This document shows positions 19,336 through 48,659 of a DNA stretch of 64,000 nucleotides, piece after piece (position 1 is the stretch's first letter; the number at the start of each line of letters is the position of its first letter). Both the position numbers and the translations under genes were made by a program. The notes beneath the pieces were generated by a model, which had not been told where the DNA came from, did no database searches, and worked only from the letters and a program-made list of their open reading frames with translations. This DNA comes from a virus, in the IMG/VR virus record IMGVR_UViG_3300025000_000075, positions 1 through 64,000 of that record; one strand, 5' to 3'.

Positions 19336-19632
19336 TTAATTTTTATTTATAATATCATTAATTGATTTAATTGATTTATTATCACTAACATTTTTTAAAA
19401 TACCATATACCAAGCTTTCTAATGACATCTCTTTTTCAATTTGTGTAATGTAAACTAATCTTATTACTAGAAAAAGTGCTACTAATACATAATAAATTGT
19501 ACTTATTACTGTAGATGGGTTAAACTTATCTAATATTAACCATGTTATCAATACTTGACTTAAATAAAAACCTTTCCGTATTGAATTACTCTTTAGCTTA
19601 TATTCTGATATAATCTGGACATTATTTCTCAT
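19336..19632 (-). CDS. small membrane protein, 98 aa
   Basis: Two hydrophobic segments near residues 22-35 (FYLSQVLITWLIL) and 42-62 (VISTIYYVLVALFLVIRLVY), then a soluble acidic tail. No family recognised. It sits between the glycosyltransferase fusion and the first C5-methyltransferase gene. Confidence 0.62.
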   Translation of the reverse strand: MRNNVQIISEYKLKSNSIRKGFYLSQVLITWLILDKFNPSTVISTIYYVLVALFLVIRLVYITQIEKEMSLESLVYGILKNVSDNKSIKSINDIINKN

Positions 19633-20651
19633 GACTCTTTTTCCAAATACTTTTTTACTTGTTTTAGAATATATTCACCAACTTGTGGTACAATACCTTT
19701 CCCTATCTGATCTAATACTTTATTTTCGCTTCCAATAAACAAGAAGTCTAAAGGTAGTCCCATAAGGCATGCTGATTCTCTTCCTGTAAGGAGTCTATGT
19801 TCCCAAGGATGTATGTACCTAGTTGCTGAAGACATGATAACTGGACCACATTTTGTTGAGTCCAGTCTTTTGTTGTTGATTCCTCCGTAGAGACCTTCTC
19901 CAGGACGAATACGAGACATTTTTTCAATTTTTTCTTCTGAATGTTTTGGAAAATGATCATTATGTAAAGTAACACCTTGTCTTCTAAGGTCATCAAGTTC
20001 TTCAAAGATAGGCCCAATAGATAGTTCAGCTCTATAATCTTTTTCTGGTGGTTCTAACATAAACCTAAAAGGAAATCTACTACCAATTGTAAATAGCCTA
20101 TCTCTCACTTGAGGTATACCAACTTCAGTTGGGGTAATCCTATGCTCTTCAATATAATAATCATACAGAGGAACTTCTTCTTTTGAGATTTGATGCTTTA
20201 ATATAAATCCAGCAGGAGTAGAATTAAATTGAACAAAGTTTTTCACAGAAGGTATATTTTCAAGAATGAATACTTTTGGTTTTCTAGCAATAATTTCTAA
20301 TATAAATCTTACATATTCAAAATCTTGAAATTCTTTCATAGCCATAGTTTTTGCATTCTTGGAATTTCTAGAACTTGATGATATCTCTCCACAACTTGGA
20401 CTTCCCCAAATAACATCAACTGGGTATTGATGAAAAGCTTCCAGTTCACTTGAATACATAATAGATTGAAAATTGCTACGGAAAGTTTTTATATTAAAAT
20501 AAGGTCGTGGTTCTAGACCCCATCTAGCATTCATACCTGCCCAAAGTGCTCCTAAAATAGGAAAACCTGCTCCACAATAGATACTACCAAAAGAAACTTT
20601 CGATATTGGATGTGGTATTAATTCATCTTTAGTGCTTAGAATTTTACTCAT
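19629..20651 (-). CDS. cytosine-C5 DNA methyltransferase homologue 1
   Basis: 340 aa. C5-MTase motifs in order: motif I-like FGSIYCGAGFPILGA, motif IV DVIWGSPSCGEISSSS, motif VI FILENIPS, motif VIII GIPQVRDRLF and motif X GKGIVPQVGEYI. The motif IV Cys is kept but the usual Pro-Cys is Ser-Cys. It would transfer a group to C5 of cytosine. Paralogous to the 22001-22990 gene, suggesting different specificities or a hypermodification role. Confidence 0.85.
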   Translation of the reverse strand: MSKILSTKDELIPHPISKVSFGSIYCGAGFPILGALWAGMNARWGLEPRPYFNIKTFRSNFQSIMYSSELEAFHQYPVDVIWGSPSCGEISSSSRNSKNAKTMAMKEFQDFEYVRFILEIIARKPKVFILENIPSVKNFVQFNSTPAGFILKHQISKEEVPLYDYYIEEHRITPTEVGIPQVRDRLFTIGSRFPFRFMLEPPEKDYRAELSIGPIFEELDDLRRQGVTLHNDHFPKHSEEKIEKMSRIRPGEGLYGGINNKRLDSTKCGPVIMSSATRYIHPWEHRLLTGRESACLMGLPLDFLFIGSENKVLDQIGKGIVPQVGEYILKQVKKYLEKES

Positions 20652-20946
20652 TTCTAATACTTTTCCATAAGATTAAATAATTTATTAAATCTTTGATAGT
20701 ATCATTTACTGATTCATTTGCAACAACTTTGTTTGGATTATTAGTTAATTCTCTTAATCTTGCAAGCTTAGTACCAATTAGTACTTTACAAGATTGCTCT
20801 TGTGTAACTCCAGCAAAATCACCGGAATATTTAAAATTAGAAAGACCATCAATCTCTGCAGCATAGTCATTCCCCTTTTTTCTTAATGTTTCCAAACACT
20901 CTGAAAAATCTGATTCCGCTAATTTAATTATGTCAGCAATTAACAT
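20644..20946 (-). CDS. DUF1599 / nucleotide-modification-associated domain 1 protein
   Basis: 100 aa with the family pattern KKGNDYAAEIDGLSNFK, GVTQEQSCKVLIGTKLARL and ESVNDTIKDLINYLIL. PF07659 (NMAD1) is a small all-alpha domain recurrently found with phage base-modification genes, which is its context here. It overlaps both neighbours, a C5-MTase and an N4/N6-MTase homologue. Confidence 0.75.
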   Translation of the reverse strand: MLIADIIKLAESDFSECLETLRKKGNDYAAEIDGLSNFKYSGDFAGVTQEQSCKVLIGTKLARLRELTNNPNKVVANESVNDTIKDLINYLILWKSIRNE

Positions 20947-21697
20947 TCTTTAACCTCTCTATAGTATAAGAAATAGCATTATGATTTATGTCACACCCAA
21001 TGAAATCTATATTTAATTCTTTTGCAACAACAACAGAAGTTCCTGAACCAACAAAAGGATCAAAGAATACTCCATCACTTGGACAACTTGAGTCTATAAT
21101 TGGATATAATAAAGATTTTGGCTTTTGAGTAGGGTAACCAGTTCTCTCTGTTTTATCATTTTGACCTAGAATTGAAATGGTCCATACATCGTCTAATATT
21201 TTACCTCTTTGATCATAATATTTTTCTTTATCATAACCTCTTGGTGCAGTTTCTGAATATGGTTGTCTTACATATTTAGAATCTGGGTTGAAATAATAGT
21301 TCTCAGTTTTTGTATATCTTAATATAGTATCATGTCTTTTTCCAAAATCTTTTTTCTTACGAGGTGCAGAATTATAGTACCATATTATTTCATTTCTGAA
21401 ATTATGATCACCAAAAATACCATCAATAAGTATTCTTATCCAATGGGAAATGATTGAATCACAATGAAAGTATAATAAACCAGTTGGTTTAAGAACCCTA
21501 TGCATTTCTATTAATCTTGGAGTATAGAATTCCAATATGTCTAATCTCACAGGTTTTAAATCTTTAAACTCCTTAAAATCTTTTCCAGTACCAAATAACA
21601 CATCCCCATATATCAAATCTATACACTTACTTGGTAATTCTTTGAGTAAGTATAGATTATCACATTGATAAACTTGATTTACTAGGATTTCATTCAT
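20933..21697 (-). CDS. N4/N6 DNA methyltransferase homologue with altered catalytic motif
   Basis: 254 aa of the beta-class amino-MTase type: the N-terminal catalytic region (VYQCDNLYLLKELP, CIDLIYGDVLFGTGKDF) precedes a C-terminal SAM-binding motif I (FFDPFVGSGTSVVVAKEL). TGYPTQKPKSLL is also typical. The catalytic DPPF/DPPY motif is DVLF here, which is unusual and could mean loss of activity or altered chemistry. It is embedded in the modification operon. Confidence 0.8.
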   Translation of the reverse strand: MNEILVNQVYQCDNLYLLKELPSKCIDLIYGDVLFGTGKDFKEFKDLKPVRLDILEFYTPRLIEMHRVLKPTGLLYFHCDSIISHWIRILIDGIFGDHNFRNEIIWYYNSAPRKKKDFGKRHDTILRYTKTENYYFNPDSKYVRQPYSETAPRGYDKEKYYDQRGKILDDVWTISILGQNDKTERTGYPTQKPKSLLYPIIDSSCPSDGVFFDPFVGSGTSVVVAKELNIDFIGCDINHNAISYTIERLKNVNC

Positions 21698-22004
21698 AAG
21701 AAATTATCTTATCATTACGTAAGAAATTTAATTCTCTCGCACTTAATTCATATTCCTTTTCATTTGGAATAAAATCTATTAAAACTTGACAGAAGTTAAC
21801 AGAGTCATCTATTTTCAATAACTCAAAATCTTTCTTTTCTTTAATAAGTTGACGATCGTCTGCATTAAGATGGCCTCTTCTTAAATCTTCCATTTGTTCA
21901 GCTAATTTAGCTGCAACAGTTTGTAATAATACCATTTTTCTAGAAGCCATCTCTTTAATTCTAGAACCATTAATTGTTATTAGTATCGATTGAAAATTAC
22001 TCAT
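21690..22004 (-). CDS. hypothetical protein, 104 aa
   Basis: Helical, charged protein (KLAEQMEDLRRGHLNADDRQ). No family recognised. It overlaps methyltransferase genes on both sides (ATGA type), so it is probably an accessory of the modification island. Confidence 0.62.
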   Translation of the reverse strand: MSNFQSILITINGSRIKEMASRKMVLLQTVAAKLAEQMEDLRRGHLNADDRQLIKEKKDFELLKIDDSVNFCQVLIDFIPNEKEYELSARELNFLRNDKIISYE

Positions 22005-22990
22005 CCTATAACTCCTAAATCAATATTTCTTTCATAATTGTATTTAATCTCACTTGCTATATGAGCAGCAACTTGTACTGGTATACTTCTACCAATTAAA
22101 TCCAGCTTTGTTGAAAAACTTATATGCCCAAATTGAAAATCTAATGGGAATCCTTGAAATGTAGCCGCTTCTCTTGGTGTAAGTACTCTATCATGCCAAG
22201 GATGTACATATTGAGTTTTTGATGATGCAATAACTGGGCAAATCTTTTCAGGATCTAATCTTTTATTATTTTGAGTTCCATAAAAACTATCACCTGGTAA
22301 GAGCTTATTAAAACCTTGTTTTCTTTCTTCAGAATGATTAGGATGTTCATCATCATATAATTTTCTATCTTTTCTTAAAAGATCTAATACAATTAAAACT
22401 TCTCCAGCTTTTTTACCAGCGAGCATTGTAGAAGGTTTAAGATACATAAAATCTAAATTCTTTAGCGAAAAGAAAATAAATAAACGTTTTCTAGACTGTG
22501 GCGTTCCATATATTTGTGAATCAACATTAACAATTTGAACACGATAATGATCTGGATATGAGAATGATTCTTTTGTTGATATACAATAAAGTTCATTATG
22601 CCTTACTTCAAAAAACCTAAGGAGAGAAGGTAAATATTCCATAACAATATATGGAGCATTTGTATAAAGTAATTTTACTAGAGCATGATAAAATTCAAAA
22701 TCTTTAATGCCAAGAGTCTTTAAACTTGAACGATCCTTTCTTTTCACTCCTAATGCAGAAATTTGACTACAGGATGGAGATGATATTAAAACTGTTGGAG
22801 TAGGATAATTTACTAATCCATCATCAAAATCATTACTAATACTTATATTAGGGAAATTATCATAAAAAGCTACCTTACCTTTATGTATAAACTCTCTATT
22901 ATCCACATTAAAAAGCACATTATAACCTTCTAATTGGAAGCCTAATAAATTACCTATGCCGCATTGAAAACCACCAACAGAAAATTTCAT
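22001..22990 (-). CDS. cytosine-C5 DNA methyltransferase homologue 2
   Basis: 329 aa. Start MKFSVGGFQCGIGN is supported by GGAGAAACA before the ATG. Motifs: VGGFQCGIGNLLG (I), VLISSPSCSQISALG (IV, Ser-Cys instead of Pro-Cys), YIVMEYLPSL (VI, ENV reduced to EYL), YGTPQSRKRLFIF (VIII) and GRSIPVQVAAHI (X). It shares the SPSC variant and the KRLDPEKICPVIASSKTQYVHPW block with homologue 1, so the two are paralogues. Confidence 0.83.
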   Translation of the reverse strand: MKFSVGGFQCGIGNLLGFQLEGYNVLFNVDNREFIHKGKVAFYDNFPNISISNDFDDGLVNYPTPTVLISSPSCSQISALGVKRKDRSSLKTLGIKDFEFYHALVKLLYTNAPYIVMEYLPSLLRFFEVRHNELYCISTKESFSYPDHYRVQIVNVDSQIYGTPQSRKRLFIFFSLKNLDFMYLKPSTMLAGKKAGEVLIVLDLLRKDRKLYDDEHPNHSEERKQGFNKLLPGDSFYGTQNNKRLDPEKICPVIASSKTQYVHPWHDRVLTPREAATFQGFPLDFQFGHISFSTKLDLIGRSIPVQVAAHIASEIKYNYERNIDLGVIG

Positions 22991-23631
22991 TGTTTCTCCA
23001 TTAAATGAAGTGCTCTTACCCATTTATTTCCATCATAATACATGAATGAGTTTAATATTTCAGATTGATAAATATCTTCTTTGATTGCTTTCCTTTTACA
23101 TGTTTTTAGTAAAGCTTCTTTACCTTCATAAGAGATTCTAAATCCATTATTTTTATCAAATACATAATATGAAGGCCAAACATATAAAAGATTTGAGTCA
23201 ATATCATTAAATTGATAATAACTTGAGTCTTTATATTGAAGATTAGATTTATGAGACTTTACTAATTCATGTAAAAAATTCTGATTTTCTAACCAAAAGG
23301 GTTCTTTAAAATAAGCATGTCGTGCTGTATAACAATATTCTTCAAAGAAGCTCATATACTTATGTATAGTCTTTATAGCACTTTTTGATTGAAAAGCTTT
23401 ACAACATTCAAAACCATATCTTGCTAAAAGATTCTCTGAGCTCATCCACATTTGAACCACAGGATGACTCAAATATCTACCAGTTCCTTTTATTAAAATT
23501 TGTAAGATTTGGTATGCTTCAAGAATTTGTTTATTTAAACGCTTATTATCAAGAAATTCTAAGCCTTTACATAAGTCTTTGAAATAGATAGTTTCAGCAA
23601 ATTCTTTATCAGACAATAAAAAAGTTTGCAT
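22987..23631 (-). CDS. pyrimidine-dimer DNA glycosylase-like (MSMEG_6728-type) protein
   Basis: 214 aa. The N-terminus MQTFLLSDKEF, EFLDNKRLNKQILEAYQIL and HPVVQMWMSSENLLARYG matches the MSMEG_6728 family, annotated in the Pyr_excise (T4 endonuclease V-related) group. Such enzymes are expected to act on UV-damaged DNA, but the family is not well characterised. ATGA-coupled to C5-MTase homologue 2, so a role with modified bases is also possible. Confidence 0.65.
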   Translation of the reverse strand: MQTFLLSDKEFAETIYFKDLCKGLEFLDNKRLNKQILEAYQILQILIKGTGRYLSHPVVQMWMSSENLLARYGFECCKAFQSKSAIKTIHKYMSFFEEYCYTARHAYFKEPFWLENQNFLHELVKSHKSNLQYKDSSYYQFNDIDSNLLYVWPSYYVFDKNNGFRISYEGKEALLKTCKRKAIKEDIYQSEILNSFMYYDGNKWVRALHLMEKQ

Positions 23632-39495: not shown

Positions 39496-39523
39496 TTTTG
39501 CAGAACAGAATAGAAAGAAGCTT

Positions 39524-39531
39524 TATATTTG
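39524..39531 (+). promoter_or_regulatory. TATATTTG promoter box
   Basis: TATATTTG followed by TTTATCAAATTTTTA, 64 bases before the MAKL protein; its transcript carries the ACTAAAAGGAGCCAAACAA leader. Confidence 0.72.
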
Positions 39532-39595
39532 TTTATCAAATTTTTATTTCAATGAGAAATAAAAAATCAATTAATAACTAAAAGGAGCCAAACAA

Positions 39596-40558: not shown

Positions 40559-40568
40559 CAAGAAGCAT

Positions 40569-40576
40569 TATATTTG
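40569..40576 (+). promoter_or_regulatory. TATATTTG promoter box
   Basis: TATATTTGTTTTGTCAATTT, one of the best matches to the shared extended motif, 52 bases before the second MAKL gene. Confidence 0.78.
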
Positions 40577-40628
40577 TTTTGTCAATTTTATTTTATTAAC
40601 AAAACAAGGTCGGGAGGCCTAATTAAAA

Positions 40629-41384: not shown

Positions 41385-41638
41385 AAAAAGAATTTACTGG
41401 TGTTGCTCATCAAAGTAAAGAAATTGAAATGAGTGACAGTACCAAGATAAAACTTACAATAATGGAATTAAGTAATAAGTTTTATCTTGATATTAGGTTA
41501 TATACTCTTTCTGAAACAGGTACTTGGCTGCCAACAAAAAAAGGGGTTTGGATATCATTAAATACAGTTGATTTTAAAGTTGAGGAGGTATTTGAATTAG
41601 GTAAAGAACTAATACAGGAATTTAGAAATGGGAGATAA
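41366..41638 (+). CDS. PC4/YdbC-like ssDNA-binding protein
   Basis: 90 aa. FYLDIRLYTLSETG followed by LPTKKGVWISLNTVDF matches the PC4 core pattern DIRxYY....G...PTKKGISL. Such proteins bind single-stranded DNA and can act in transcription or replication. Its C-terminal codons (EFRNGR) lie in the first copy of a 109-bp duplication. Confidence 0.6.
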   Translation: MANSKVKKEFTGVAHQSKEIEMSDSTKIKLTIMELSNKFYLDIRLYTLSETGTWLPTKKGVWISLNTVDFKVEEVFELGKELIQEFRNGR

Positions 41639-41847
41639 ACATAAATACATTTTTAAATGTAAATGTCTAGTCAAAATTAAAAAAGGTGAGCCCATCTCTT
41701 TTAAAGAAAAATCAAAATCTATTAATGTATTTAGAAATGGGAGATAAACATAAATACATTTTTAAATGTAAATGTCTAGTCAAAATTAAAAAAGGTGAGC
41801 CCATCTCTTTTAAAGAAAAATCAAAATCTATTAATGTATTTAGAAAT
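41621..41847 (+). repeat. perfect 109-bp tandem duplication
   Basis: Bases 41621-41729 are repeated without any visible difference at 41730-41838, followed by a third partial TTTAGAAAT (41839-41847). The TTTAGAAAT at each junction is the microhomology. 109 is not a multiple of three, so the first copy of the downstream reading frame is broken. Identity implies a very recent event or an assembly artefact. Confidence 0.92.
41628..41747 (+). pseudogene. truncated 39-aa first copy created by the tandem duplication
   Basis: It begins MGDKHKYIFKCKCLVK like the intact copy. The 109-bp unit shifts the frame so it reads VFRNGR and stops at the TAA inside the second copy, the same stop context that ends the PC4-like gene. 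Probably a non-functional relic. Confidence 0.7.
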
Positions 41848-45192: not shown

Positions 45193-45265
45193 GGAGATGT
45201 TGTAATAATGGTAATTATCGTATCAGAAATGATATGGGATTTAGGTTCGAGTCCTAACGCCTCCG
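45193..45265 (+). tRNA. tRNA-like gene, aberrant anticodon loop
   Basis: A 73-nt cloverleaf can be drawn: acceptor GGAGATG/CGCCTCC (one A-C mismatch, one T-G), D stem GTAA/TTAT with a GG-containing loop, T arm TTAGG-TTCGAGT-CCTAA with the canonical TTCGA. The anticodon arm CGTAT/ATATG has an eight-base loop (CAGAAATG) without the usual U33. CCA is not encoded (GCAA). Either a degenerate tRNA or a tRNA mimic; amino acid not assignable. Confidence 0.55.
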
Positions 45266-45283
45266 CAAATAAAAAGGATTTAC

Positions 45284-46982: not shown

Positions 46983-47070
46983 GAAGGTTTTTTGAGAAAG
47001 CACTCTTTTCCTTCTTAATCCAAAGGCTTCGCCATATTAAATTTATGAGGTTTAATATGAGTGAAGCCTT
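46981..47070 (+). terminator. tandem hairpins ending at a promoter
   Basis: AAGAAGG/CCTTCTT closes a first hairpin (46981-47017). The second is long: AAGGCTTC (47023-47030) with GAAGCCTT (47063-47070), plus CATATTAAA (47033-47041) with TTTAATATG (47051-47059). The last bases of the second stem overlap the TATATTTG promoter at 47070, isolating the RAMP-like unit from upstream transcription. Confidence 0.7.
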
Positions 47071-47077
47071 ATATTTG
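47070..47077 (+). promoter_or_regulatory. TATATTTG promoter box
   Basis: TATATTTGTTTTTATCAATT, 37 bases before the RAMP-like gene. Transcription from here would run through both genes into the pentamer-repeat tract. Confidence 0.76.
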
Positions 47078-47114
47078 TTTTTATCAATTAAAAACAATTA
47101 AAAAGGGTATAAAG

Positions 47115-47702
47115 ATGAAAAAAGAAACAATCAAATGCTTTGAAGTTGAATTAACAAGCGCAAGTCCAATTTTGTATAATAAGCCTATTATCTCCAAAAA
47201 AGAAGCTGGAGATGCTCATGAAAAATTTGAAGACAAGACTTGGAAAGAAAGACTTCATTTTGATCCAACAACTAAAGAAGTTTACATTCCTGGTAGAGCA
47301 CTTAGTAACACTTTAGTTGAATGTGCAAGATTTTTATCAGAATCAGTTCCTGGTAAAGGCAAAGCAACTTACACAAAACATTTTGAAGCTGGCATATCAA
47401 TTCCTGAAAATATCCAATTGGGTATTGATGAAAGTGCAGTAAGTTATCTACCAATGTTTGTACCTTCTGATGGTAAAAAGGGCGGAAGTTCAAGGGTATG
47501 GAAGAAATTTCCAGTTATTACAGAATGGACTGGAAAAGCAAGAATCATAATTATTGATCCTATTTTGATTGATAGGTCTGAAAAGGTTATTGAATATCTT
47601 GATAAAGCCGGTAAATTTGTAGGATTGTTGGCTATGCGTCCAAGAAAAGGTGGAGAATATGGACGTTTTCTTGTTAAATCATATAAAGAAGTTGAGTTAT
47701 GA
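47115..47702 (+). CDS. RAMP/Cas7-like protein
   Basis: 195 aa. Start MKKETIKCFEVELT with SD AAAAAGGG. The hallmark strings resemble type III CRISPR RAMP proteins: EVYIPGRALSNTLVECAR (compare IPGSSLKG-x-x-R) and a C-terminal Gly-rich segment GLLAMRPRKGGEYGRFLV (compare GGKTSRGYGR). The N-terminal strand VELTSASPILYNKP also fits a ferredoxin-like RAMP core. Cas7 proteins polymerise along RNA with a fixed nucleotide step. No cas effector, integrase or adaptation gene is nearby. The five-base-periodic tract at 48235 follows the next gene. Confidence 0.5.
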   Translation: MKKETIKCFEVELTSASPILYNKPIISKKEAGDAHEKFEDKTWKERLHFDPTTKEVYIPGRALSNTLVECARFLSESVPGKGKATYTKHFEAGISIPENIQLGIDESAVSYLPMFVPSDGKKGGSSRVWKKFPVITEWTGKARIIIIDPILIDRSEKVIEYLDKAGKFVGLLAMRPRKGGEYGRFLVKSYKEVEL

Positions 47703-47703
47703 T

Positions 47704-48234
47704 ATGGAAACACAAGAAATTAGACATTTTCCACATAAATCAGTATTTACTGCTCAGTTGATTACATTATTGTCTTCAAAACAAGTAGGAGACATTATTT
47801 CAGATGCAGAGATGATGATCTTAATCAACAAAGATACTAGACCTAGCAGAAGTGGATATCAATTCTTATTGTCTGCTATTTCTTATGTACTTAGAAACAA
47901 TGGACTAGTATGGAAACGATTATATAAGCAAGATTGTATTAAGTGCTTAAATCCTTCAGAGATATCAGATTTAACAGATGGAGAACGCAGGAGGATATCT
48001 AAGACTGCATCTAGGTCAATAAGAAAGTTAACATCAGTAAATGTTGATTCCCTCCCAGCTGAGCAACGTCAAACTTATATTTCTAAGATTGCTCAATTTG
48101 GAATGTTAAAACAATTCTCAAGCGTTAAAACATTGAACGCACTTAAATCACCAGAGAAGTCAAATAAACTTTTATTTACTCCTGACATTGATTTTTACAA
48201 GAAAACTTTTTCTAATAAAATTGCAACATCTTAA
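47704..48234 (+). CDS. helical protein paired with the RAMP-like gene, 176 aa
   Basis: Starts one base after the RAMP-like stop (METQEIRHFPHKS). Helical, with a GYQFLLSAISYVLRNNGLVW helix and a basic stretch (GERRRISKTASRSIRKL) that could bind nucleic acid. No family recognised. Its stop codon lies within a few bases of the start of the TTNNR tract, so gene and tract share one transcript. Confidence 0.6.
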   Translation: METQEIRHFPHKSVFTAQLITLLSSKQVGDIISDAEMMILINKDTRPSRSGYQFLLSAISYVLRNNGLVWKRLYKQDCIKCLNPSEISDLTDGERRRISKTASRSIRKLTSVNVDSLPAEQRQTYISKIAQFGMLKQFSSVKTLNALKSPEKSNKLLFTPDIDFYKKTFSNKIATS

Positions 48235-48309
48235 TTATTCAATTAAGCTCGGTTTCATTTTATTTTACTATATTTAGTTGCTGTGGATTTGATTGTATTT
48301 CATTAAGTT

Positions 48310-48347
48310 AAGTTTGAGGCCTCTACTAGATTAGAGGCCTCAAATTT
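48310..48347 (+). ncRNA. GAGGCCTC hairpin 1
   Basis: TTTGAGGCCTCTA (48313-48325), loop CTAGAT, TAGAGGCCTCAAA (48332-48344); 13 bp perfect, extended to 16 bp with one G-T by AAG/TTT. Same stem as hairpin 2 with a different loop. Confidence 0.8.
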
Positions 48348-48482
48348 GATTATTAAATTTGAATATATCTAGATTGATTCAGTTAAATTGTATTAGATTG
48401 AATTGCATTAACTTCTATTGAATTGAATTTCACTTTATTCAGGTTAGTTCAGTTTCAGTTTATTAGATTCAATTATATTAAG

Positions 48483-48514
48483 TTTGAGGCCTCTAGTCTA
48501 ATAGAGGCCTCAAA
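48483..48514 (+). ncRNA. GAGGCCTC hairpin 2
   Basis: TTTGAGGCCTCTA (48483-48495), loop GTCTAA, TAGAGGCCTCAAA (48502-48514). It begins 170 bases (34 units of five) after hairpin 1, so hairpin and pentamer phase are linked. Confidence 0.8.
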
Positions 48515-48615
48515 TTTGATTTTTAAGTCTTTTACTTTATATTCGATTGAATTAAGTTACAGTATATTCAGTTCTGTTAAATTGAATTAAGTTAAGTTTA
48601 TTATTTTAAAAGCCT

Positions 48616-48623
48616 TATATTTG
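48616..48623 (+). promoter_or_regulatory. TATATTTG promoter box
   Basis: TATATTTGTTTTTACCAATT after AAAAGCCT, 36 bases before the 48660 gene; it closes the pentamer tract downstream. Confidence 0.76.
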
Positions 48624-48659
48624 TTTTTACCAATTAAAATAAAATTTGAAGAGGATATA

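Follow-up and report, generated by a model that had tools for sequence, protein, structure and literature searches.

What is encoded by a stretch of phage DNA that repeats a pattern every five bases but is no simple repeat? The DNA analyzed here (hereafter the window) comprises positions 1 to 64,000 of the IMG/VR virus record IMGVR_UViG_3300025000_000075, a phage record of 79,949 bases, and carries such a tract at 48237-48600, directly behind two small genes, vipr and vap. We consider the tract to be an array of guide RNAs (vrRNAs) on an A/T-rich RTT scaffold, belonging to VIPR, an RNA-guided DNA-recognition system related to CRISPR that was described in 2026 on bioRxiv (PMC13142463); we put the probability of this reading at about 0.92. 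A first-pass annotation, made from the sequence alone, knew of no described element of this form, a statement that the VIPR publication overtakes: the system itself is already described, and the RTT-scaffold array is a variant of it.

The periodic tract and its proposed protein partner

The tract can be parsed into 50 units of five bases, RTT|NN, distributed over three tracts of 16, 22, and 12 units (table 1). The first scaffold column holds A 33 times, G 15 times, and C and T once each (A/G in 48/50), the second holds T 43, G 4, and C 3 times, and the third is T in all 50 units, as had been counted previously on a parse of 52 units. Both NN columns are mixed (first: A16 C10 G10 T14; second: A24 C7 G8 T11). 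Tracts 1 and 2, 140 bases apart, share one phase, from which tract 3 is offset by one; the positions of GAGGCCTC place the two hairpins 170 bases apart, and on both counts the first-pass annotation was right. Its description of the periodicity as strict was slightly overstated, given the presence of GCT, ACT, TGT, GGT, AGT, and CTT units, but the period of five itself is real. Fourier power at period 5 reached 6.3, 10.9, and 7.4 for tracts 1, 2, and 3, compared with maxima of 2.8, 3.4, and 3.2 among dinucleotide shuffles (0 of 2,000 reaching the real value for each tract) and with 4.3, 3.5, and 3.3 for the highest-scoring windows of equal length in the rest of the record. This comparison, which had been proposed with the initial observation, leaves the tracts as the strongest period-5 signal of all 79,949 bases. 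Counted per 16 units, in-phase RTT occurs 13, 13, and 11 times in the three tracts and at most six times elsewhere in the record, on either strand. No match was found in Rfam, and hence no known ribozyme or leader.

A decayed coding sequence, a degenerate satellite repeat, or AT-rich low complexity would also produce AT-rich and repetitive DNA. This explanation has next to no probability: the signal is reached neither by shuffles nor by the rest of the record, Tandem Repeats Finder reports no array at the tract, and the explanation is refuted by the conservation of the form, with changed letters, beside the same gene in relatives of 30-68% GC.

In published VIPR systems, of which there are seven types (I-VII), vap genes accompany a Vipr RAMP, each vrRNA alternates the triplet GGY "or a related consensus" with NN over 9-16 units and has an invariant structured 3′ tail, and DNA is read by an xNN code that skips one nucleotide (PMC13142463). 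Type II VIPR is represented by Escherichia phage SUSP1, whose Vipr has been solved as PDB 36pp, and by a Pseudomonas fulva prophage (PMC13142463). The locus studied here likewise combines a minimal RAMP homologous to SUSP1 Vipr, a vap gene beside it, an intergenic pentanucleotide tract with hypervariable NN pairs, and, as the structured 3′ tail, AA-type units common to the tracts and to relatives. The AlphaFold (AF2) model of the vipr product, built from a 48-member alignment, has a predicted local distance difference test score (pLDDT) of 96.9, and among solved folds in the PDB those nearest to it belong to Cas7/Csm3 subunits in CRISPR complexes of types VII and III. The family profile matches the SUSP1 Vipr protein (36pp_D) with E = 2.7e-9. 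The product falls in phrog_4652 (1.2e-10), whose function is not known, and Pfam, NCBIfam, and PADLOC have no family for either vipr or vap. A vap homologue lies downstream of vipr in 56 of the 64 other loci examined. The vap product (AF2 pLDDT 88) has an N-terminal domain of a helix-turn-helix plus strands and is probably a winged-helix DNA-binding protein, judging from its model; matches to winged helix-turn-helix regulators in the PDB are weak, none reaching E ≤ 0.001.

By analogy with the published SUSP1 system, plus-strand RNA would be transcribed and would assemble into a ribonucleoprotein with copies of the RAMP whose gene starts at 47115, the near-constant RTT serving as a scaffold read by the protein and each NN pair being displayed for base pairing. 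Successive pairs would be read as NNxNNxNN on double-stranded DNA, the skipped base usually being a codon wobble position, so that each tract would specify one site. Each tract closes with fixed units of the NN = AA type, and a terminator-like hairpin comes after the first two. The presumed effect of binding is repression of genes that belong to competing phages or satellites, aided by the probably DNA-binding Vap.

The resemblance to type II VIPR extends to the small single-RRM RAMP, the vap partner, the phage location, the tracts with hypervariable NN, the 3′ tail, and guides with the statistics of a codon-wobble skip (here at the family level). The locus differs in the scaffold (RTT instead of GGY, with GTT in the nearest clade), in the G-loop (GLLAMRPR vs. 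GxGD[FW]RP), in tails of AA-type units followed by the GAGGCCTC hairpin, and in that sequence similarity is remote. With the class 1 CRISPR-Cas RAMPs (Cas7/Csm3 of type III Csm and type VII) it shares the protein fold and the coating of RNA by repeated subunits, but the period is five here and six in Cas7, and the effector is a single gene. A CRISPR array with contiguous spacers was not found beside the RAMP gene: there are only the two hairpin copies, with period-5 sequence between them. The first-pass annotation had taken the tract for a lattice with a fixed step, bound by a repeating RNA- or ssDNA-binding protein and possibly carrying information in its variable bases, and this view has essentially held up, given the adjoining Cas7-fold Vipr and the guide-like NN pairs. 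The analogue that it named, the trp RNA-binding attenuation protein (TRAP), has not: TRAP, too, recognizes short motifs with a step of about five bases, but it is a ring-shaped, unrelated protein that binds (G/U)AG triplets and regulates trp genes, whereas here no TRAP-like gene was found next to the tract, the fixed triplet is RTT without a (G/U)AG motif, and the adjacent protein is a RAMP.

Relatives and the diversity of scaffolds

We found 69 viral contigs that encode a Vipr relative; one is identical to the window over 9,160 bases, and the other 68 were compared. In 67 of these 68, the stretch with the highest period-5 signal is located no more than 1.5 kb from vipr, where 30.6 would be expected by length, and no such proximity effect was seen for periods 4 and 7. 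Loss of the period in relatives with kept flanking genes had been raised as a test of the original observation; the opposite is seen, with strong period-5 tracts in which the fixed bases change, across relatives spanning 30-68% GC. The fixed triplet is lineage-specific (GAC, GGC, GTT, CGC, CAC, CTC, or AAC, and RTT in the window), with the triplets of weak tracts, such as those of L029 and L067, being uncertain, as triplet calling in a locus begins at its best window. In the Vipr tree, the window groups with three GTT relatives (L003, L007, and L011) and with L005 (GA[CA]), with support of 99/86. Tracts of GGY/NN also lie beside the gene in distant bacterial homologues, found by the profile of the window's family, and in phage DSL-LC04, which ties this family directly to published VIPR.

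Three relatives carry features of their own. In phage DSL-LC04 (OR003939.1, 2500-3426), the Vipr relative is annotated as a helix-turn-helix regulator, and an unannotated GGY/NN tract lies upstream. L054 (6150-7629) contains ten CTC/NN tracts, possibly a long array of separately promoted guides; near-identical blocks of a terminator hairpin and TATAATG lie between at least the first several. In L004 (4724-5715), tracts on both sides of vipr are followed by similar hairpins in an identical order, which suggests duplication of a two-guide cassette.

The scaffold may be read by the Vipr G-loop. Residue 173 (window numbering) is Arg in 34/34 Viprs with a middle-G scaffold; among 35 Viprs with another middle base it is Arg in 12, another residue in 22, and truncated in one. 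In the window and the closest GTT relatives, residue 172 is L and residue 173 is A, T, or R. On a tree built without these columns, the middle base changes at least 16 times; of five independent pairs, 2.8 had residue 173 and the middle base going the same way and 0 the opposite way (median p 0.25), which is too few for significance, and the covariation is suggestive. A universal rule by which Arg reads G was rejected, since GGY-type Viprs carry D at residue 173, and any scaffold code would therefore be specific to the window's Vipr family. That VIPR scaffolds form an evolvable, protein-read alphabet, in which the triplet changes between lineages, G-loop residues 172-173 read its middle base, and different VIPRs in one cell would act as orthogonal channels of the same NN code, is an idea to which we give even odds.

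The proposed guide code and the search for targets

If NN corresponds to codon positions 1-2 and the skipped base to the wobble position, each guide should keep one phase, whereas the phase would rotate with a skip of 0, 2, or 3. For 215 guides with 3,180 NN, the fixed phase of a 1-nt skip had a log likelihood of -8675, compared with -8828 for skips of 0 or 3 and -8809 for a skip of 2, a margin of 134-153 log units; 97% of the model weight lies on codon positions 1-2, sense or antisense. The 1-nt skip wins in each of the GAC, GGC, CGC, CAC, and CTC classes, and in the xTT class by about 10 log units. Controls sampled every 2, 3, 4, or 5 bases from the same loci selected the matching step each time, and letter-shuffled and letter-swapped guides fit far worse (shuffled, about -8915 to -8937). 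No strand consistency within guides was apparent when units were shuffled among the guides of one locus (mean -8682, maximum -8670, vs. -8675). The NN statistics support the published 1-nt-skip code independently and extend it to non-GGY scaffolds, while being no substitute for a target match.

These statistics also bear on a TRAP-like or structural RNA lattice, in which a protein would coat the tract in a regulatory or packaging role and the NN bases would be uninformative. Viewed by itself, the tract does resemble a lattice for a protein, and RAMPs are proteins that coat RNA, but the fixed-phase fit far exceeds that of shuffled letters and the NN content differs among tracts while the triplet stays; we judge such a lattice very unlikely. 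The same codon-like statistics count against an autoregulatory RNA that, as the 3′ region of the vipr-vap transcript, would mainly titrate Vipr. All three tracts do lie 3′ of vap, apparently on one transcript, but many relatives have further tracts before vipr and between the genes, and we consider this role highly improbable.

Several observations weigh against the assignment to VIPR. SUSP1 Vipr is matched significantly by the family profile only, not by the window's protein on its own (E = 1.3). The tracts hold 13, 20, and about 10 guide units, so that tract 2, possibly two overlapping guides, exceeds the published range of 9-16. The three guides of the window on their own give log likelihoods of -114.1 versus -115.9 and -117.0 and are too few to decide. 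We found no natural target for these guides, either in viral_contigs or in the record of the phage itself. Searches of viral_contigs with NNxNN patterns of 8-9 units, drawn from each of the three guides, yielded no match extending beyond chance, and scanning all guides, at skips of 0-3, against every locus fetched and the phage record gave no excess over shuffles. Similarly, a CGC-scaffold guide of a Rhodospirillales prophage had no target in 76 genomes of its order.

The missing target, the lack of an upstream tract such as many relatives have, and the several units that depart from RTT would fit a VIPR remnant that has lost its function, with GCT, ACT, TGT, GGT, and AGT units as signs of decay. 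We regard this as very unlikely: the third-position T is kept in every unit, the vipr and vap reading frames are intact, a promoter-like element is present, and tail and hairpin units are conserved between tracts.

Anatomy of the proposed array and other features of the window

Within the guide array as we read it, each of the first two tracts runs into a hairpin (table 1), and we propose the first of these as a terminator-like or processing element. GAGGCCTC occurs in the window only at 48316, 48334, 48486, and 48504, and the two hairpins that it forms are the only ones of this kind there.

Table 1. Coordinates of the genes and proposed array elements in the window
Feature	Position	Strand	Description
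Promoter-like element 5′ of vipr	47064..47083	+	AAGCCTTATATTTGTTTTTA, 20 bases; contains TATATTTG
vipr	47115..47702	+	195-aa single-domain RAMP, Cas7/Csm3 fold; proposed guide-RNA coat
vap	47704..48234	+	176-aa accessory protein, second gene of two-gene operon
Putative vrRNA tract 1	48237..48316	+	13 guide units: CA AA CG TC TT TT AT TA GC GG TG GT TC
Tail of tract 1	within 48237..48316	+	Units ATTAA GTTAA GTTTG
Hairpin 1, closing tract 1	48306..48351	+	GAGGCCTC stem, loop CTAGAT; -28.1 kcal/mol; terminator-like match
Putative vrRNA tract 2	48377..48486	+	20 guide units; tail units ATTAA GTTTG
Hairpin 2, closing tract 2	48477..48520	+	Stem as hairpin 1, loop GTCTAA; -28.4 kcal/mol; terminator-like match
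Putative vrRNA tract 3	48541..48600	+	About 10 guide units; tail units GTTAA GTTTA; no hairpin after
Promoter-like element of next gene (48660)	48610..48629	+	Marks array end

The element AAGCNTTATATTTGTTTT has four copies in the window (0.14 expected by chance), at 39518-39537, at 40563-40582, and at the two positions given in table 1, each 50-80 nt 5′ of an open reading frame (ORF) start (39596, 40629, 47115, and 48660). AAGCCTTATATTTGTTTTTA precedes vipr and the gene behind the array, and its two near copies precede the other genes; TATATTTG resembles the Bacteroidota -7 box TAnnTTTG. The repeated 20-base element probably serves as a Bacteroidota-type phage promoter. Inside the array, -33/-7 promoters of this type were no more frequent than by chance. 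A long hairpin at 47023-47072 (AAGGCTTC...GAAGCCTT) overlaps the promoter-like element before vipr and may be a terminator or regulatory structure.

Elsewhere in the window, a perfect 109-base tandem duplication (41620-41847, 2.1 copies) lies inside or beside a short ORF, possibly a recent duplication or an assembly artefact, and a tRNA-like gene at 45193-45266 received a four-base anticodon call (gaaa). Three neighboring ORFs (19629-20651, 20933-21697, and 22001-23023) appear DNA methyltransferase-like by eye, two being cytosine-C5-like and one of the DPFVGSGT type.

With the tract read as a vrRNA array, the guide code of VIPR is not tied to GGY: the NN logic occurs on RTT and on several other triplets, in phages of 30-68% GC, and statistical support for a wobble-skipping code can be obtained without targets. 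A period-5 tract beside a small RAMP gene would provide a sequence signature for annotating VIPR-like systems, and the G-loop data point to specific Vipr residues as candidates for reading the scaffold. Small RNA-guided binders whose scaffolds are orthogonal to one another would, in addition, be of practical use as tools.
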